This document shows positions 29,002-39,425 of a DNA stretch of 43,403 bases, in pieces (positions within the stretch are counted from its first letter, which is position 1; each line of letters opens with the position of its first letter). Source of the DNA: Lachnospiraceae bacterium (GTDB lineage Bacteria > Bacillota > Clostridia > Lachnospirales > Lachnospiraceae); NCBI GenBank assembly GCA_024691015.1, contig JAILOD010000093.1:1-43403 (forward strand), read 5' to 3'. Below the pieces are notes generated by a model that saw only the letters and a list, made by a program, of their open reading frames with translations, made no database searches and was not told where the DNA came from. Position numbers and translations under genes: made by a program.

Positions 29002-30690
29002 CTATCTTACTATGTTTTTATAATATTGCCGTTTGCTTTCATACATTCTCTTATCCGCAAGCATAAATACCGCATGCGAATCCTCACCGGGACAATCATG
29101 CCTGAAAGCAAGGCCATAAGATACCGAATAATAAATTCCGTCGTTCTCTGAATTTAAATCATTTATCTGAAGCTTCATATCATTGATAAGGGAGTTTATC
29201 GATCTTTCATCCCCCTTTTCCACAAAGGCGGTAAACTCATCTCCTCCTATACGACAGACCGTGGCTTTGTCCGAAAAGACCTCTCCTAAAACTCCGGCAA
29301 CGTTTTTCAGCAGTATATCACCCTTCGCATGTCCCATTTCATCATTCACCCTTTTCAGGCCGTTTACGTCAATGCTGATTATACAATAATCCTCGCTGCT
29401 GTGATCCATATCGTCCATCTTTTTATCGCTCATTGCACGATTATAAAGCTCTGTCATTTCATCAATATAAGCCAGCCTTGCAAGTGATGCGTATTCTCTT
29501 TTGCGGGCATAGGATTCCGTAATAAACAGCATAAAATTCAGCAATATCGCCATTGCAAAAAGCATGGCTCCGATCGGGATTATCATATCCGAAATACTTC
29601 CGCCTATACTTCCGCTCTTTTTTGTAATATAAAACGGAATGGAAAGAACCGTCGCCCCGCCGAGCGCCGTAAGTCCCAGAGTCTGCACGATCTCCGAACC
29701 CGAATAGCCCCCGTGCCTGAAGAATTTAATGTCGTTATACACCATAAATATCAGACAGGCCGCACTCATAATATGGCATACAAAAATAAATGCGCGTATA
29801 TGAATGATATTGTTGACATGCAGGAAAAGAATAAAGATCAAAAAAATTATATCCACAACCGCAATGATCCTGTACAGTTTTCTTAAATTACTGCGATCAA
29901 CAGTCGACAGCATAAGAAAACCGACCGCGGGGATCAGAATGATCAGTATAAATTCCCATAATGTGGAATAGCTGTTAAAGACAAAAATATATGCCAGATT
30001 ATTACTGAAGAGTATCCAAAGTCCCATTAAAATACAAAGCAGAGAGCTTACTATCTGGCTTATTATCTCCCGGCTGTATGAAGAAAAAACAGTACTGATT
30101 ATAAAGAAAACAAGTCCGAAACAGACAAGATATATGGAAGAGGCTATTACAAAAATATTGCTGTGCAGCAAACCGGATTCAAGATCGTGATAGTCTCCTA
30201 TCATGGGAGCCAGAATACCTTTATACGCCTTATTCTCGGCAGCATACAGCTTTATCGAAAGCTTTTTCCCGGTGCTGTCCGAAGGCAGTGTAACATAATG
30301 GTATCCGCAGCCTACAAAATTACCATGAGCATAATCCATAAGATATTGCTCCTCTACCATTTTGTCATCTATGTAGACCTGATATGCACAATACTGGGTT
30401 TTAAAAAGAAGGGTAGGAAAGTCCAGCCCGCTGATATCATATATTTCATGTGACAACGTCAAAAGATCGCCCCTCATTATATTCCCGGGTAAAATGGTAC
30501 CTATATCATTTATATTAAAGCCCTCGTACTTTACACCCTTGTACTCCGCACTCCAGCCACCGTTTAAGACGGTCACTTCATCATCCGGATCAAAGGTGAT
30601 ATTGATTTTAAGCACACTGACAATTGCCCACAAAAGAACCAGTGTGAGCAATACACAGAGCATAAGCCTTTGATTCTTCCTGCTTATCAT
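29002..30690 (-). CDS. Membrane GGDEF protein (putative diguanylate cyclase) with extracytoplasmic beta domain and 7TMR-DISM-like TM region
   Basis: DEMTELYNRAMSDKKM...CRIGGDEFTAF; N-terminal TM, beta-rich segment, multi-TM block. Confidence 0.9.
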   Translation of the reverse strand: MISRKNQRLMLCVLLTLVLLWAIVSVLKINITFDPDDEVTVLNGGWSAEYKGVKYEGFNINDIGTILPGNIMRGDLLTLSHEIYDISGLDFPTLLFKTQYCAYQVYIDDKMVEEQYLMDYAHGNFVGCGYHYVTLPSDSTGKKLSIKLYAAENKAYKGILAPMIGDYHDLESGLLHSNIFVIASSIYLVCFGLVFFIISTVFSSYSREIISQIVSSLLCILMGLWILFSNNLAYIFVFNSYSTLWEFILIILIPAVGFLMLSTVDRSNLRKLYRIIAVVDIIFLIFILFLHVNNIIHIRAFIFVCHIMSAACLIFMVYNDIKFFRHGGYSGSEIVQTLGLTALGGATVLSIPFYITKKSGSIGGSISDMIIPIGAMLFAMAILLNFMLFITESYARKREYASLARLAYIDEMTELYNRAMSDKKMDDMDHSSEDYCIISIDVNGLKRVNDEMGHAKGDILLKNVAGVLGEVFSDKATVCRIGGDEFTAFVEKGDERSINSLINDMKLQINDLNSENDGIYYSVSYGLAFRHDCPGEDSHAVFMLADKRMYESKRQYYKNIVR

Positions 30691-32369
30691 ACCTTACCGC
30701 CTTCATGGTGAATTTCCTTCATCATATACATTCTGCTGTCCGCCATAAGAAAGACTTCATGGGCCGTTGTCCCCTTAACCTCACTGTTTTTTGCGAAGCC
30801 ATAGGAAAAATCATATTTTCCCTTAAGCTCCTCCTGGAAGCTCTCCAGTCTTTTTTCCAGCGTATTCCAGCGTATACTGCCCATTATCACTATAAATTCG
30901 TCGCCGCCCATTCTTCCGACTATCTTTGCATCATAAAAAGCGTTGGACAGCTCATTTGCGAAGCCCCTCAAAAGTCTGTCTCCCTCCAGATGTCCTTTTG
31001 TATCGTTTATCTCCTTTAAATGATCCAGGTCGATGTTAATGATCACATATTCGTTTTTGTCCTGTTCAAGTCTGACCAGCTCCATTTCGCTTCTCGCTCG
31101 GTTTGATATACGTGTAAGCGGGTCGGTATATGCAACACCCATAAGCTTCTTACGCACATCATCGGCATTGTAATGGCTTATGGTATGGAAGAAATAATTC
31201 ATTACCATTGCTATTACAAACACAAGAGCACCGTATGTTACAAAGCTGAAATTATAGATCCTGCGATTGGAATTCAGCGCTGCGATAATGACATACTTTA
31301 ATACATCAGCAAGCGCAGATACAACAAATACAACCATGCCGGCCAGAAGGCAGTTGTCACTCAGCCACAGGGCTGCATCGTGGAGTTCCTCCATTCTGTT
31401 CTGTCTGAAGGTTTTTACAGCCACATACAGCACATAAAAGCTTTGTATAATGGAGAAGCCCTGTATATACCTGATAACCATATTAATATGCAGGATATTA
31501 AGGACATGCAGTACAATGAGAACCGCGACCACCAGGATGTTTGCACAAGCCAGGACAGCCGTAACACGCTTAAGTCTGTCCCTTTGAACGGTATACAGGA
31601 AAACGAGTATCAAAACCGAAACCATATATACAGATACATATTCACCCACCGTAGACATCTCCAGATTATCCGAAAACATCAGCAGAAGATCGTAATAGCA
31701 AAGAGCATAATAGCCCATCATAAATGCCATAAGTCCGCATATGGCAATCCCCAGATCATTGTTTCCGTATAACAACAGGTAAGGCGAAAGTAAGATCAGA
31801 CATATACCGAACACGGCAAGGAATACAGAAAGCACCAGCACTCCCCTCTTCGTTCCTATCACATATCTGACCAGTTCTGCCCTGTTGCCCAGATAAACAT
31901 TGGACAGAGCGGAATGAATATTATCCTCCGAATAATTGATTATTATCCTTACGGTTTTTCCTCCGAACTGTTCGGGTAAGGGAATGTAATTTGCTTTTTT
32001 GGGTATCAGTTTTCCATTTTGGGCATAATCCTTTCCATAGGTATATATCATGCCTCCGTCAATGGTAACCGTGAGCGCACAAAGCCCGCTCCTTAAGTAA
32101 ATGGCAGGTGTATGTATCCTCTCATGAGGAAGCTCGTGGGTTAAGATCAGTACGTTACCGTCCTTTCTTATACCCACATCAATATCATGGATATTAACGT
32201 CTTCTCTTACCTCATCTCCGTCTATAACAGTCCAGCCATCGTTTAAGTCGATCACGGGATATTCATATTTCTGGTCAATAAAAGACATGGCCACAAAAAT
32301 AAATGAGGCCAGCACAATGACCAGTATGAGTTTTACTATTATCAGATATTTTTTTCCGATAGAATTCAT
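30687..32369 (-). CDS. Membrane GGDEF protein, paralogue of the adjacent gene
   Basis: DPLTRISNRARSEMELVRLEQ...GRMGGDEFIVIMG; same layout as the downstream gene, 4-nt overlap. Confidence 0.9.
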   Translation of the reverse strand: MNSIGKKYLIIVKLILVIVLASFIFVAMSFIDQKYEYPVIDLNDGWTVIDGDEVREDVNIHDIDVGIRKDGNVLILTHELPHERIHTPAIYLRSGLCALTVTIDGGMIYTYGKDYAQNGKLIPKKANYIPLPEQFGGKTVRIIINYSEDNIHSALSNVYLGNRAELVRYVIGTKRGVLVLSVFLAVFGICLILLSPYLLLYGNNDLGIAICGLMAFMMGYYALCYYDLLLMFSDNLEMSTVGEYVSVYMVSVLILVFLYTVQRDRLKRVTAVLACANILVVAVLIVLHVLNILHINMVIRYIQGFSIIQSFYVLYVAVKTFRQNRMEELHDAALWLSDNCLLAGMVVFVVSALADVLKYVIIAALNSNRRIYNFSFVTYGALVFVIAMVMNYFFHTISHYNADDVRKKLMGVAYTDPLTRISNRARSEMELVRLEQDKNEYVIINIDLDHLKEINDTKGHLEGDRLLRGFANELSNAFYDAKIVGRMGGDEFIVIMGSIRWNTLEKRLESFQEELKGKYDFSYGFAKNSEVKGTTAHEVFLMADSRMYMMKEIHHEGGKV

Positions 32370-32374
32370 GGAAT

Positions 32375-33859
32375 TTACCTGTGGAAAAGCTTTTCGGTCT
32401 GGTACTGGGGCTCACAGGTCAGGTTTACGCCAAGCTTCTGGAAGGTATTCTCATCCGTGGATGAAAGGATAACAGAAGAATGAACCTCACACCCCTTTAA
32501 TTTTTCCAACTGCTCCATTGCCAGCTCCGCCTTGGGATCATCAGAGGCACAGATAGTAAGCGCTATCAGGATTTCGTTTATATGCAGATGGGGATTGTGA
32601 TTACCCAAATGCGATACCTTAAGATGCTGTATAGGCTCTATGATGGTCGGCGCAATAAGCTTCAATTCGTCACCTAAACCGGCCAGAGTCTTTAACGCAT
32701 TGAGCAGCATTGCCGAGGAAGCTCCCATAAGAGGAGTTGTCTTTCCGGTAATGATCTTTCCGTCGGGAAGCTCTATTGCCGCTGCAGGTGCACCGGTTAT
32801 TTCGGCCTTTAAATTGGCAGCCGCCACCACCGGCCTGTCGGCAACGCTTATATCGGCCTTCTTCATTAACAGCTCCAGCTTATTGACACTGTTTTCGTTG
32901 CCGTTACCCTTACGAAGCTCGTCCTGCTCTTTGTAATATCGTCTTATTATTTCCTGATTTGCCGCATTGCATACAGCCTCATCATCAAAAATACAGTTAC
33001 CGGCCATATTTACACCCATATCTGTCGGTGATTTGTAAGGGCTTTCTCCGCTTATTTCTTTAAACATTGCATTAAGTACGGGGAATACCTCGACATCTCT
33101 GTTGTAATTGACCGTTGATATGCCGTAAGCATCGAGATGATAAGGATCTATCATATTAAGATCGTTAAGATCAGCCGTAGCCGCTTCATACGCAAGATTT
33201 ACGGGATGCTTTAACGGAATATTCCAGATGGGGAAGGTCTCAAACTTTGCATATCCGGCCTTCACCCCGTGCTTGTTCTCGTTATACAGCTGTGACAGAC
33301 ACACCGCCATTTTACCGCTTCCGGGCCCCGGTGCCGTAACCACCACCAGTGAATGCTTTGTCTCGATATAATCATTTCTGCCGAAGCCTTCATCACTTAT
33401 GATAAGCGGAACATTATTGGGATATCCGGCTATGGGATAATGCCTGTAAACCTTTACTCCCAGGCTTTCAAGCTTTTTCTGATATGCAACTGCACTTTCC
33501 TGTCCTTCAAAACGTGTGAGCACAACGCTTCCCACAAAAAGCCCGTAGCCTCTGAAGGCATCTATAAGACGGAGCACATCCATATCGTATGTGATACCCA
33601 GATCCCCTCTGACCTTGTTCTTCTCTATATCTCCTGAATTGATGACCAGCACAATTTCTACATCTTCTTTTAACTGAAGCAGCATGTTGATCTTACTGTC
33701 AGGCTTAAATCCCGGCAAAACCCTTGAGGCATGATAATCGTCGAAAAGCTTTCCGCCGAATTCCAGATATAGCTTTCCTCCAAATTTTCCGATCCTGTCT
33801 CTGATATGTTCGGATTGTATTTTCAGATATTTGTCATTATCAAACCCTTGTTTTGTCAT
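32375..33859 (-). CDS. DUF1846 (UPF0371) family protein of unknown function
   Basis: GFDNDKYLKIQSEHIRDRIGKFGGKLYLEFGGKLFDDYHASRVLPGF is the typical start of this family; Walker-A-like VVTAPGPGSGKMA. Confidence 0.88.
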   Translation of the reverse strand: MTKQGFDNDKYLKIQSEHIRDRIGKFGGKLYLEFGGKLFDDYHASRVLPGFKPDSKINMLLQLKEDVEIVLVINSGDIEKNKVRGDLGITYDMDVLRLIDAFRGYGLFVGSVVLTRFEGQESAVAYQKKLESLGVKVYRHYPIAGYPNNVPLIISDEGFGRNDYIETKHSLVVVTAPGPGSGKMAVCLSQLYNENKHGVKAGYAKFETFPIWNIPLKHPVNLAYEAATADLNDLNMIDPYHLDAYGISTVNYNRDVEVFPVLNAMFKEISGESPYKSPTDMGVNMAGNCIFDDEAVCNAANQEIIRRYYKEQDELRKGNGNENSVNKLELLMKKADISVADRPVVAAANLKAEITGAPAAAIELPDGKIITGKTTPLMGASSAMLLNALKTLAGLGDELKLIAPTIIEPIQHLKVSHLGNHNPHLHINEILIALTICASDDPKAELAMEQLEKLKGCEVHSSVILSSTDENTFQKLGVNLTCEPQYQTEKLFHR

Positions 33860-34451
33860 TTCTAACTTCTCCTATTATCATCTTTATCTTTTCGGGATCC
33901 TTCATCCCGTTTGTTTCCGCACCGCTGCTTATATCCACGATCTCAGGTGAAAACCTCTTTATCGCATCAGCCACATTCTTCTCATTAAGGCCTCCCGCAA
34001 GAGCAAATGGCCTTCCGATATCGCGTATCAGCGTCCAGTCAAAGGTCTGCCCGCTGCCCGTTCCGTTATCAAGCATAACCATATCCGCAGTGCTTTGTTG
34101 CGCCCACTTGATATCCTGCTCGTTCTTAATCTGAAAAGCCTTAAAGATCGGAGCATCGGTAAGCCCTCTCAATATCCTTATATAACCCTCATCCTCGTGT
34201 CCATGAAGCTGGATTATATCAATTATCCCATCTTCCACATAGGATGCCGCTTCGTCCGGAGGAGTATCCACAAAAACCCCTACCGCTTTTATCCGATCAT
34301 CCAGCAGACTCTTCATATGCTTTGCGGCTTCCCTTGAAACATATCTCCTGAACGGTCTTGATAAAACAAAACCGCAATAATCAGGCAGATACTCATTTAC
34401 CGCATCGATGTCCGAAGTCCTCATCATCCCGCAAATCTTAATCTTTGTCAT
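33840..34451 (-). CDS. trpF: Phosphoribosylanthranilate isomerase
   Basis: KIKICGMMRTSDIDAVN, FVLSRPFRRYVS, IQLHGHEDEGYI, PFALAGGLNEKNV, VDISSGAETNGMKDPEKI. Confidence 0.94.
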   Translation of the reverse strand: MTKIKICGMMRTSDIDAVNEYLPDYCGFVLSRPFRRYVSREAAKHMKSLLDDRIKAVGVFVDTPPDEAASYVEDGIIDIIQLHGHEDEGYIRILRGLTDAPIFKAFQIKNEQDIKWAQQSTADMVMLDNGTGSGQTFDWTLIRDIGRPFALAGGLNEKNVADAIKRFSPEIVDISSGAETNGMKDPEKIKMIIGEVRNDKTRV

Positions 34452-34479: not shown

Positions 34480-37400
34480 TTATCTACTGTTTTTCAAAAA
34501 CAGCTGAAGCTCTTTAACAACCTCTGCATAAAGCTTCATCATATGGCCGTAGCCCTTATGTATTTTTTCTTCATCCTCAGCCTTTCCGGCCTTTTCCATC
34601 TCATATGCCAGATCCGCAAGCTCATTTAGGCCCAGGGTCCTCGAAGAACTCTTCAGTGCATGTGCTTCAACCGAGAAATCCTTCCAATTCCTGTTCTTAT
34701 AATGCGTTTTCAGCATTTCGGTTTTTTCCGGAGCATCCTCTGTATACACCTCTGCGATAGTCACCACAAATTCCTTGTCACCGCCGCAATATGTCATGGC
34801 ATCTTCCATGTTCATATGCACGGGAACGTAGTTTACGTTCTCTTCAGCTGTTTCTTTATCAGACTCTGTTTTTTTGATATCTTCAGCCTTATTATCCCCG
34901 GAACTCAGCTTGTCCTCCGGAAGGAATTTATTCAGAACCGTTTCCAGATCCTTGCCCGTTACGGGCTTTGAAAGATAATCCGAAAATCCTGCTTCTATAT
35001 ATTTTTCCCGCATACCGGATATTGCATTTGCTGTAAGCGCTATTACCGGAGTATCGTTACAAAGATGTTTGTGATTCCTTATACGTTCCAGTGTCTCCAT
35101 TCCATCCATCTCGGGCATCATATGATCCAGAAGGATAACATCATAGTGCTTCAAGGTGATCTTATCCAGACATTCAGAACCGCTGTGGGCAGTATCGATC
35201 TGAATTCCGGTTGTCTTAAGCAGACCCTTTACCACTTCCAGATTCAGGTTATTATCATCCACGACCAGAATGACGGCATCTTGCGCACTAAATACAGGCT
35301 CATATTTTATATTCTTTTCAACCGGTTTTGATTCGGTAACTATATGTCCTATTGGCTTTGATTCAACTATCTTCTGTTTAAGGGTAAATGAGAAGGTTGA
35401 TCCCTGTCCGTATTTACTCTCCACCTGAACATCACTTCCCATAAGGATCAACAGCTGCCTGGTAATATTGAGTCCCAGTCCGGTTCCCTGTATATGGGCG
35501 TTCCTTCTCTCATCCAGCCTCTCAAAGCTTGTGAATATCTTATCCAGATCTCCTTCCCTGATACCCATTCCCGTATCGGTCACCTTATAGGTGATAAAGG
35601 CTTCATCTCCGTCCACATGGTTAATATGTACCGAGAAGGTGATCGTTCCTTCGTCGGTATACTTCACCGCATTGCTTAGGATGTTTAACAGCACCTGAGA
35701 TATCCTGACATCATCGCCGAAAAGTACGGAAGGTATATCTTCGCCGAAATCGGTTATAAAATCCAGATCCTTTGCCTCGGCATTGACATGCGTCATCTTG
35801 CAGACTTCCTTCAACAGCCTTTCAACCCCGTAGTCTCTTTCAACAATATTCATACGTCCGGATTCAATTTTGGAAATATCCAGAATGTCATTTATGATGG
35901 ATAGCAAAGAAACACTCGCATTATGAATATCGTTGGCATAGCCTCGTACCTCATCACTCACGTCTTCCCTTAAGATCAGCTCATCCATACCCATAATGGT
36001 ATTAATAGGTGTTCTTATCTCGTGCGACATGTTGGCAAGAAATCTGCTCTTGGCCTGGTTTGCCTTATCCGCATCCTCCTTGGCATCCCTTATCTGGTCA
36101 TACTGATCCCTGATCACGGAAATGCTTCCGTATTTTGCTATCAGCCAGGTAAAGCTGAATACCGCAAGAACAAGTACAAAGAACATATATGCCTTAAAGT
36201 AAAACTGTTCATATAAATGCGCTTCTTTTGTTATGGGAACAATAAGATCCCTTATCATCCTGTTTGTGGCCGCATCGATGATCTGTAAATGAAAGTTATA
36301 GCTGCCGGTCGGAATATTGGTATATGTAACGCTGTCACACTCGCTCTGCAGCATGGTTACACCCTCATCATCAAAGCCTTCCAGATACATGTGTACGATC
36401 GGATCCGTAAGTGTATAGTTTAAGATCGCCGGCTCTATCTCGACTCTTCTGGCATTTATCGGCAGAAGATAATTACCGTCACGGCTTACAGGCACAAGAT
36501 CCTCCCCATCAGCCGTTATCCGGTAGATCATAACATTGTAGTCGTTCTGTATTCTGTCATAATCGTTCAGGGATATTCTTCTTACCCCGTTCGCAAGACA
36601 TATGTAGAGATTTCTCCCCGCGTCCTTATAATCCCAGGAATTTGAATTGTGATTGCCGTCCAGACCGTCCTGCCTGTTTAATAATCTCCAGCCGTAATCT
36701 TCATTTTTTATAAGCTCCCGAATGTTTACGATATAGATTCCGGCACTGGACATTATCCAGGCCTCTTCACCGTTTATGCTGATGTCATAATTATTGCTGT
36801 AGGGAAACTTGTCCAGTTTTATTATGGTATTATTCTTTTCGTAGAATAATGCCGAACTTGTAACATAGAAAAATCCGCTGTCATAGGGTACTATTCTCAT
36901 AACCACAAGCGATTTGAGCCCGTCATCCTCATCTATGACATCAACCACCTTATCATCCTTTATGACATAAACTCCGCCTCCGTCACTTCCGGCCATTATG
37001 GTCCCATCCTTCTTCTGGTAGAGAGATAAGATCTGCGGCATTGTAATCCCTTCATTTTCCCCGAGTGTTTTTTCAACTCTCTCGTTTTTTATAAAGGTAA
37101 GTCCGGTTGTACTTGCCAGTAGAATTCTTCCGTCCGAAAGCTCGATAGCGGACCTGAAGCGGTTTCCAAGGGTCTGGTCTTCACTTTCCGTATAGGTCGT
37201 TATCGCATCATCCGCAGAAACATGTACCTCACCCATTCCGTTATAGGTGGATATCCAAAGACCGTTGTTACTGTCCTTTAATATATGCCTGATCCTTTCT
37301 CCGGCCAGCGCTCTGGTAAGACGGTTTCTTACCTCATAATATTTTTCACTGTTAACAATATACAGACCGTCATCCGTGCCGATATACAAAAGCCCTTCTC

Positions 37401-39099
37401 TCTCGGCTACAACATTTACAACATGTTCCTTTATCCCCGCCTTCGTGAAAATATCCACGAAAGGATTCTTCGACATTTTACATACACCCAGCTTACTCGA
37501 TGTGATCCAGATATTCCCCTGTTTATCTCTGATCATATCCGAAATAGAACTGTCAAAGCCCGCGGTTTCCACCTTCCGGTAATTACCCTCGTTATCCAGG
37601 ATTCCTATTCCTTTATCTGCGCATACGAATATCTTTTCACTCAGATTATCTGCTTTCATTGTGTTTACGGCACCTATATTCTCATCATCGGTGTCGTTAA
37701 GCACTACCAGATTACTGCCTACAAGCTTTACTCTTCTTATGATGTGTTTCGATGTACCTATAAGAAATTCGCCGTTATATCCCTCACTGATGGATGTATA
37801 TTCCCTGTCATCCATATCAAATGCTTCTTTATATATCACTCTGCCGTGGCGCATAAAAAACACAATACCGTTATTTGTAACACCGGCAACGGTATCGGTA
37901 GCTTTTGAATAAATGAGCGATTTAACCACACTTATATCGGCAAGGGACGAGAACACGGTCACCTTACCGGTTACGGGAGATATCATCGCCATATCCGTAG
38001 CGGTTCCGACATAAATATTATGATCTTTATCCTCCGCGATACAGCGTACCGAATTTGAAGGAAGACCGCGTTCCACGTCATAACAGCTTACCTCACCCGT
38101 CGGCATCTCATAACAAAAAATCCCTCCGTCGTTGGTTGCGATCCACATATTTCCCTGCGAATCCGAATACAGGTCCTTGACATTCTTTATCCGGTTATCA
38201 ATGTGTTCTTCCTCAAACTCTTTCCCGTCAAAACGATAAAGCCCGGAATAGCTTCCGACCCATATATATTCATCAGAGGTCTGTTCTACAACATTTATCT
38301 CCTCACAATTCATGCCTGTTTCGGAATTGTATATAACCCGGTTATATTCCGAATTGAGATCCTCTTTCTCATAAATATTCAACTTGTCATCGGATGCCGC
38401 ATATACCGGATGCACCAGCGAAAACAGAATGGCTGCAGTCAGCAGAGGGATGAAAAAAGCATAATAGGAATTGATACTGTCATCTTCCTTTTTCTCTTCC
38501 TTCTTTTTCTCCTCTACATCCTCCTTTGCAAAAAGACCGCCCATTTCATGGGACTTTCTGATAATAAATATGATTCCGGAGGCTAAGAACATCACAAGGA
38601 CCTTATCCGGAAAATCCACGAACAACTCGGCAAAAAATGCACTGATCCCTTTGCCCGCTCCGGTATTGGAGAGCATGTCAAACATTGCGTCTCCCCACAT
38701 ATTTCCCGTGCGGCCGTCCATGAAAACATAATTTACGGGTATTGACAGAACCGTAGAAACTATACAGGAAACTATGGAAGTTCCGACTATGGAAAAAACA
38801 TCATATTTTCTGGGATATACATAACTGACAACAAATGCCACGCCTACTCCGGCAATGGAACAGAATACATAATGGACCCCGATGGGTATCTGCAAAACTC
38901 CGGAAATGATCGCAACCAATGAGCCCGCAAGAGGTCCTAAGATACAGGAAGATACAACGGTACCTGTGCTATCCAGCCAAAAAGGCATATTGAGAGCAAT
39001 GCTCACAAATTTCCCGACAAGATTTATGACCACGCAAAAGACTATATATAATAAACTTTCTACATTTAACGTAAATTTTAATTTATCTGTAAACTTCAT
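34480..39099 (-). CDS. Hybrid sensor histidine kinase: N-terminal multi-TM (ECF-S-like) module, extracytoplasmic Reg_prop propeller/Y_Y_Y, HisKA-HATPase, REC, Hpt
   Basis: H-box FLANMSHEIRTPINTIMGM; HATPase DTGMGIREGDLDKIFTSF and GTGLGLNI; REC VILVVDDNNLNLEVV...VILLDHMMPEMDG; Hpt VEAHALKSSSRTLG; propeller repeats such as DSQGNMWIATNDGGIFCY. Confidence 0.93.
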   Translation of the reverse strand: MKFTDKLKFTLNVESLLYIVFCVVINLVGKFVSIALNMPFWLDSTGTVVSSCILGPLAGSLVAIISGVLQIPIGVHYVFCSIAGVGVAFVVSYVYPRKYDVFSIVGTSIVSCIVSTVLSIPVNYVFMDGRTGNMWGDAMFDMLSNTGAGKGISAFFAELFVDFPDKVLVMFLASGIIFIIRKSHEMGGLFAKEDVEEKKKEEKKEDDSINSYYAFFIPLLTAAILFSLVHPVYAASDDKLNIYEKEDLNSEYNRVIYNSETGMNCEEINVVEQTSDEYIWVGSYSGLYRFDGKEFEEEHIDNRIKNVKDLYSDSQGNMWIATNDGGIFCYEMPTGEVSCYDVERGLPSNSVRCIAEDKDHNIYVGTATDMAMISPVTGKVTVFSSLADISVVKSLIYSKATDTVAGVTNNGIVFFMRHGRVIYKEAFDMDDREYTSISEGYNGEFLIGTSKHIIRRVKLVGSNLVVLNDTDDENIGAVNTMKADNLSEKIFVCADKGIGILDNEGNYRKVETAGFDSSISDMIRDKQGNIWITSSKLGVCKMSKNPFVDIFTKAGIKEHVVNVVAEREGLLYIGTDDGLYIVNSEKYYEVRNRLTRALAGERIRHILKDSNNGLWISTYNGMGEVHVSADDAITTYTESEDQTLGNRFRSAIELSDGRILLASTTGLTFIKNERVEKTLGENEGITMPQILSLYQKKDGTIMAGSDGGGVYVIKDDKVVDVIDEDDGLKSLVVMRIVPYDSGFFYVTSSALFYEKNNTIIKLDKFPYSNNYDISINGEEAWIMSSAGIYIVNIRELIKNEDYGWRLLNRQDGLDGNHNSNSWDYKDAGRNLYICLANGVRRISLNDYDRIQNDYNVMIYRITADGEDLVPVSRDGNYLLPINARRVEIEPAILNYTLTDPIVHMYLEGFDDEGVTMLQSECDSVTYTNIPTGSYNFHLQIIDAATNRMIRDLIVPITKEAHLYEQFYFKAYMFFVLVLAVFSFTWLIAKYGSISVIRDQYDQIRDAKEDADKANQAKSRFLANMSHEIRTPINTIMGMDELILREDVSDEVRGYANDIHNASVSLLSIINDILDISKIESGRMNIVERDYGVERLLKEVCKMTHVNAEAKDLDFITDFGEDIPSVLFGDDVRISQVLLNILSNAVKYTDEGTITFSVHINHVDGDEAFITYKVTDTGMGIREGDLDKIFTSFERLDERRNAHIQGTGLGLNITRQLLILMGSDVQVESKYGQGSTFSFTLKQKIVESKPIGHIVTESKPVEKNIKYEPVFSAQDAVILVVDDNNLNLEVVKGLLKTTGIQIDTAHSGSECLDKITLKHYDVILLDHMMPEMDGMETLERIRNHKHLCNDTPVIALTANAISGMREKYIEAGFSDYLSKPVTGKDLETVLNKFLPEDKLSSGDNKAEDIKKTESDKETAEENVNYVPVHMNMEDAMTYCGGDKEFVVTIAEVYTEDAPEKTEMLKTHYKNRNWKDFSVEAHALKSSSRTLGLNELADLAYEMEKAGKAEDEEKIHKGYGHMMKLYAEVVKELQLFLKNSR

Positions 39100-39270: not shown

Positions 39271-39303
39271 AAAAAAATCCCGACCGTTAAACGATCGGGA
39301 TTT
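39271..39303 (-). terminator. Rho-independent terminator downstream of tRNA-Arg
   Basis: Minus strand AATCCCGATCG-TTTAA-CGGTCGGGATT followed by TTTTT; 11-bp stem with one G-U pair. Confidence 0.88.
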
Positions 39304-39306
39304 GCC

Positions 39307-39380
39307 TGCGTGAGACAAGATTCGAACTCGCGACCTTCTGGTCCGTAGCCAGACGCTCTATCCAGCTGAGCTACTCACGC
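39307..39380 (-). tRNA. tRNA-Arg (anticodon ACG)
   Basis: Minus strand GCGTGAGTAGCTCAGCTGGATAGAGCGTCTGGCTACGGACCAGAAGGTCGCGAGTTCGAATCTTGTCTCACGCA: 7-bp acceptor GCGTGAG/CTCACGC, anticodon stem TCTGG/CCAGA, loop CTACGGA, T-loop TTCGAAT. CCA is not encoded. Confidence 0.96.
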
Positions 39381-39396
39381 ATTTTCAGCAAATGAT

Positions 39397-39425
39397 ATCT
39401 TACACAAAATATGCTTTATTGTCAA
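39397..39425 (-). promoter_or_regulatory. Sigma-A promoter for tRNA-Arg
   Basis: Minus strand TTGACA (39425-39420), 17-nt spacer, TAAGAT (39402-39397), 16 nt before the tRNA 5' end. Confidence 0.8.

Follow-up and report, generated by a model that had tools for sequence, protein, structure and literature searches.

A predicted signal peptidase junction between an ECF S-component-like module and a propeller sensor kinase in Lachnospiraceae

Introduction

The window analysed here, a stretch of 43,403 nucleotides from a Lachnospiraceae bacterium, contains a gene whose product carries a membrane module resembling the small-molecule S components of ECF transporters in front of a propeller sensor kinase, with what looks like a Sec signal peptide at the junction. 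The question raised by this locus is whether the product is one polypeptide, in which a transporter-like module tunes the kinase, or a polyprotein that is cut into two parts. Partipilo and Slotboom (2024, PMC11109136) showed that 5TMR-LYT sensor kinases have the fold of S components, and left open how this fold moved from transport to signalling. The answer that we favour, with reasonable but not high confidence, is a two-part polyprotein with a predicted signal peptidase I cut after VYA234, giving an S-like subunit and a propeller sensor kinase.

Gene and domain organization

The gene occupies positions 34480–39099 of the minus strand, on which all of its features lie, and encodes an ORF of 1539 amino acids with an ATG start; each sequence stretch quoted in the earlier note was found in it letter for letter. 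The product begins with a six-helix S-like module (residues 1–185; 38545–39099), followed by the charged, predicted cytosolic linker KEDVEEKKKEEKKEDD (residues 186–209; 38473–38544), the hydrophobic h-region of the signal-peptide-like segment (residues 210–229; 38413–38472) and a c-region with the predicted signal peptidase I site HPVYA↓A (residues 230–234 and 235; 38395–38412). The span 38398–39099 corresponds exactly to residues 1–234, the part N-terminal to the proposed cut, and the codon of Ala235 begins at 38397. There follow a predicted extracellular double propeller with a YYY domain (residues 256–958; 36226–38334), a transmembrane helix, TM8, that would anchor the kinase part (residues 966–990; 36130–36204), and the HisKA and HATPase_c kinase core (35371–36054), receiver (34933–35271) and Hpt (34558–34755) domains assigned by Pfam. 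The propeller was recognized by Reg_prop in Pfam (E = 9.5e-27), and the YYY domain scored 21.7 bits, which is below its cut-off of 26.6. The model of the ectodomain was best matched in Foldseek by the ectodomains of BT3049 (target-normalized TM-score 0.80) and BT4663.

An assembly artefact or a chance gene fusion was considered and rejected, because the S-propeller fusion is carried by 75 separate contigs of many genera of one family, with no internal stops. Just upstream of the gene, at 39275–39425, lies a tRNA-Arg(acg) gene accompanied by sequences that resemble a promoter and a terminator, and the sensor gene therefore probably has its own promoter. On the same strand it is followed by genes for a DUF1846 protein and a TrpF-like PRA isomerase (32375–34451), which have no obvious link to sensing, and by two adjacent genes with a 4-base overlap (29002–32369) for GGDEF proteins of about 560 residues, the N-terminal parts of which have no Pfam match.

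The S-component-like module

Residues 1–185 match the profile NF045596 (ECF_S_CD3073) with E = 2.4e-13 and 50 bits, a score below the curated cut-off of 180; the stand-alone relatives encoded in ECF operons likewise score under this cut-off. The matches to TIGR02359 (thiW) and to Pfam ECF_trnsprt (E = 0.09) are weak. An AlphaFold model of the module, built from an alignment of 82 relatives, has a mean pLDDT of 87.6 and shows the six-helix S-component fold. When this model was compared with the PDB using Foldseek, the first 12 matches were all S components or ECF transporter structures, among them Thermotoga RibU, ThiT, Staphylococcus RibU and PanT. The probabilities were 0.87–1.00 and the target-normalized TM-scores reached 0.66, with a best E value of 0.017 and none below 0.001. 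A sequence profile of the module finds RibU in the PDB at E = 0.01, and phmmer with the module as query gave no useful match there. Helix 1 has no literal AXXXA, the EcfT-contact motif, and the ECF-operon relatives have the same small-xxx-N and GxxxA/S pattern, so that this feature does not discriminate.

The resemblance to S components proposed in the earlier note, and the fold comparison that it suggested, are thus borne out. Taken together, the profile match, the fold and the genomic context of the stand-alone relatives give good support for homology of the module to ECF S components.

Anatomy of the junction

In the model, residues 186–244 have no confident structure (pLDDT < 50) and are flanked by two well folded parts. 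The segment that joins the S module to the propeller is unconserved across 75 propeller fusions, except for a short hydrophobic run and a small-x-Ala site 6–8 residues further on. A loose signal peptidase motif was found in 73 of the 75 junctions, compared with 60.9 expected from shuffling. This null is weak because the junction segment is rich in alanine, and a strict motif with matched-helix controls was used instead. The strict motif, [AVI]xA after the hydrophobic core, is present in 60 of the 75 junctions, compared with 27.2 expected after shuffling within each segment; the largest count in 20,000 simulations was 42. Applied to control helices, the same rule picked out 1 of 21 at the equivalent position of the propeller-less S fusions, 5 of 75 for TM6, and 0 of 68 on one side and 7 of 68 on the other side of TM8. 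The frequency of alanine at −1 is partly selected, as sites were picked for alanine there and it is not independent evidence; the claim rests on the matched controls.

Other features of the junction point in the same direction. In the aligned sites position −3 is valine or alanine, with an information content of 2.4 bits compared with less than 1.4 bits for those neighbouring positions that do not belong to the hydrophobic run, and −2 is often large or charged. Proline, which is known to block signal peptidase when substituted at +1 (PMC11898559), never occurs there in 74 aligned sites. The hydrophobic run has a median length of 16 residues in the propeller fusions, compared with 21 for TM8 and 24 for the helix of the non-propeller S fusions. 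The linker of the window protein is net acidic (six Lys/Arg and nine Asp/Glu over residues 186–212) and would make a poor n-region, compared with a family median of +4, and a few members of the propeller-fusion family (L126, L165 and L134) have no clear cleavage site. The genome encodes three S26 signal peptidases. The earlier description of a signal-peptide-like junction ending in VYA↓ASDD thus agrees with the family as a whole, and the converse that it allowed for, a plain transmembrane helix in all homologues with no A-x-A-like motif, is contradicted by them.

A separate route to two proteins, an internal translation start, was rejected. An in-frame ATG, GTG or TTG between the S module and the h-region occurs in 52 of 74 members and is preceded by a Shine–Dalgarno-like sequence in only six; in the window gene, the linker sequence AAAGGAGG has no in-frame start 5–12 nt downstream.

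The segment could also act as an uncleaved signal anchor. The product would then be one polypeptide with two sensors, with a small molecule bound by the S module within the membrane, a second cue read outside by the propeller, and the kinase tuned by both. The topology is equally workable, kinases with a covalently attached S-fold domain are established (Partipilo and Slotboom, PMC11109136), and in the S-HD-GYP fusions of these genomes the helix seems to be an ordinary, uncleaved one. However, an anchor predicts neither small residues conserved at −3 and −1, nor the shortened hydrophobic run, nor the contrast with the non-propeller fusions, and we regard it as rather unlikely. We favour the polyprotein over a single polypeptide because the motif is kept in almost all of the propeller fusions and is virtually absent from the other S fusions.

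If the segment is cut, the cut might itself be the signal, as in RsiV, where signal peptidase cleaves after a transmembrane segment and is gated by ligand binding (PMC6066255). Here the site would become reachable only when a ligand binds to the S module or to the propeller. RsiV has a conserved protective amphipathic stretch after its site, whereas positions +1 to +12 of the propeller fusions are variable (0.4–1.4 bits) and no protector was seen in them, which makes conditional cleavage decidedly improbable.

Co-inheritance and origin of the junction

Propeller sensors which lack the S module were found in the same genome and in relatives, and their N-termini are ordinary signal peptides, such as ...LTVSA↓DET and ...FCVYA↓KEV. 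When the N-terminal signal peptides of 20 such sensors were scored in the same way, 12 had the strict motif and 18 the loose motif, and the median run was 17 residues. As judged from their sequences, the internal segments resemble signal peptides no less than these real N-terminal ones do. Because similar signal peptides stand at the N-termini of the S-less paralogues, the junction segment very likely descends from the signal peptide of a propeller gene, and the best reading is that an S module became joined to the N-terminal side of an already complete signal peptide.

Distances between the S modules are strongly correlated with those between the propellers (Mantel r = 0.91 for 75 proteins, reached by 0 of 999 permutations), and the median identity among the 75 fusions is 32% for the S module and 35% for the propeller. 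On these comparisons the two parts have long travelled together, and the fusion is old and co-inherited. The same paralogues that point to the origin of the segment would also fit a non-functional relic, carried in with the propeller gene at fusion and kept by no function. We consider this extremely unlikely: in a fusion of this age only −3 and −1 are conserved while the rest of the segment has drifted, and with median identities as low as those given above a relic site would have decayed, yet these two positions are kept. Cleavage by signal peptidase I is the simplest selected function that would account for the pattern.

Distribution and layouts in the family

A close match to the S module was found in 103 of 397 genomes sampled from the same family, in four layouts. 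The first comprises the S-propeller fusions, of about 1150–1690 residues, in which the output domain differs (hybrid kinase, HD-GYP or GGDEF) and the junction stays. In the second, S fusions of about 711 residues end in HD-GYP, and the stretch between TM7 and the output domain looks Cache-like, on a weak Pfam match in one member only. The third (L063) is a hybrid kinase with a fused S module and no propeller, and the fourth is formed by stand-alone S proteins of about 200 residues. A class-wide sample yielded, outside the family, stand-alone forms and forms of about 700 residues and no propeller fusion; two named records with genes of these kinds are Lachnospiraceae.

In several genomes a non-propeller S fusion, which is an S-HD-GYP protein of about 711 residues where complete, lies downstream of an S-propeller gene, often overlapping it or a few bases apart, so that two types of S module adjoin (L047:6463, L050:6104, L051:1-919, L056:8332, L133:4171, L142:1-1089 and L154:4004). 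The genome from which the window derives has, on contig C159 (L061:2237-8688), an S-HD-GYP gene followed after 65 bp by a gene for an S-less propeller hybrid kinase with an ordinary N-terminal signal peptide.

Stand-alone relatives and a possible ligand

The search for stand-alone versions of each part that was called for at the outset found both: S-less propeller sensors, as described above, and stand-alone S proteins. The closest of the latter share a mean of 33% identity with the fused modules, which is about as near as the fused ones are among themselves; the non-propeller fusions share 22%. The motifs P-x-W-L-D-S-x-G-T, G-x-T-G-N-x-W-G-D and D-K are common to the propeller-fused and stand-alone modules, and the middle one is absent from the non-propeller fusions. 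The closest stand-alone relatives are encoded in S-EcfT-EcfA operons. Stand-alone CD3073-type S genes (L065–L071, L073 and L209–L228) recur in such operons, which often hold an enzyme of the PNP/uridine phosphorylase family, an isochorismatase-family hydrolase, a 3H/HTH_11 regulator or an IU nucleoside hydrolase. The domain layout of this regulator is that of NiaR. As a lead only, the set of genes would be consistent with import of nicotinamide riboside or some other nucleoside, and we note these S genes as candidates for ECF transporters of such compounds. A natural split, with a stand-alone S gene beside a propeller gene with a signal peptide, was not seen in 20 stand-alone S loci; L043 stops at a contig edge and is uninformative on this point.

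Proposed processing of the product

The sequence of events that we consider most consistent with these data is as follows. The S-component-fold module would be inserted into the membrane with its N-terminus and C-terminus both cytoplasmic. The charged linker and the complete Sec signal peptide would then re-target the chain, restart export and send the propeller across the membrane, after which signal peptidase I would cut after VYA234. The step from signal-peptide anatomy to a cut is one that we infer, and we judge it somewhat better than evenly balanced. On the sequence evidence, the product is probably split in this way into an S-like subunit (residues 1–234), with the spent signal peptide left as its tail, and a type I propeller sensor kinase (residues 235–1539). 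The latter would have one membrane span and a HisKA-REC-Hpt phosphorelay, and would work like a hybrid two-component sensor of Bacteroides. The two parts would be made in a 1:1 ratio. The S subunit would most likely be a separately folded ligand subunit for a small molecule (a vitamin or a nucleoside-like compound), and may partner the sensor or dock on an ECF module.

A more specific proposal is that the cut is constitutive and releases a working ECF-type S subunit which still docks on an ECF module for import of its ligand, together with a propeller sensor with kinase, HD-GYP or GGDEF output, so that the uptake of one nutrient and the sensing of a different one are held in a fixed ratio. Two EcfT-type genes are present elsewhere in the genome, and neither EcfT nor EcfA is encoded beside the window gene. 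We offer this version tentatively and think it unlikely to hold in full.

If cleavage does take place, a large set of sensors annotated as single proteins in Lachnospiraceae would each be two, both the models and the domain annotation of these hybrid kinases would have to be corrected, and signal peptidase would be added to the enzymes known to shape two-component sensors. The presence in one genome of related S modules that have the site and others that lack it offers a clean natural contrast for the move of the S fold from transport to signalling.

Comparison with known systems

S-fold kinases and propeller hybrid kinases are both already known; the polyprotein layout of the window protein was not found described, and a literature search that combined the two domain names returned no paper. 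The hybrid two-component sensors of Bacteroides, such as BT3049 and BT4663, similarly have a double propeller and YYY ectodomain, a transmembrane helix and HisKA-HATPase-REC in one chain (PMC3243724). The window protein differs from them in having an S module and an internal signal peptide in front, and an Hpt domain at the C-terminus, where Pfam did not find an HTH DNA-binding domain.

The window protein resembles the 5TMR-LYT sensor kinases (PMC11109136) in being a signalling protein that begins with a membrane domain of the S-component fold. On the two features compared, it does not belong to this group: its PF07694 score is 16.3 bits, below the curated cut-off of 24.6, and it lacks the N-terminal H0 helix, since in the models the first transmembrane helix starts at residue 12–13 and is preceded only by a four-residue turn at 3–6. 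Its module is closer in sequence to the CD3073 ECF S components, and leads to a second, extracellular sensor through an internal signal peptide rather than running directly into cytosolic domains.

With the CD3073-family S components (NF045596) the module shares sequence similarity and the motif residues of the stand-alone proteins of S-EcfT-EcfA operons. In contrast to these it is fused, falls below the curated cut-off and adjoins no EcfT or EcfA gene.

For a polyprotein of this kind Bradyrhizobium fbcH, the cytochrome b/c1 polyprotein, is a close precedent. In Staphylococcus aureus LtaS, SpsB cuts after the transmembrane domain between Ala217 and Ser218 (PMC11898559). LtaS and the window protein both have a multi-helix membrane part and an extracellular part in one polypeptide with a signal peptidase Ala site between them, which for the window protein is predicted. 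In the window protein, however, the exported part would keep a C-terminal transmembrane helix and a cytosolic kinase, and the junction takes the form of a full signal peptide placed after a linker.
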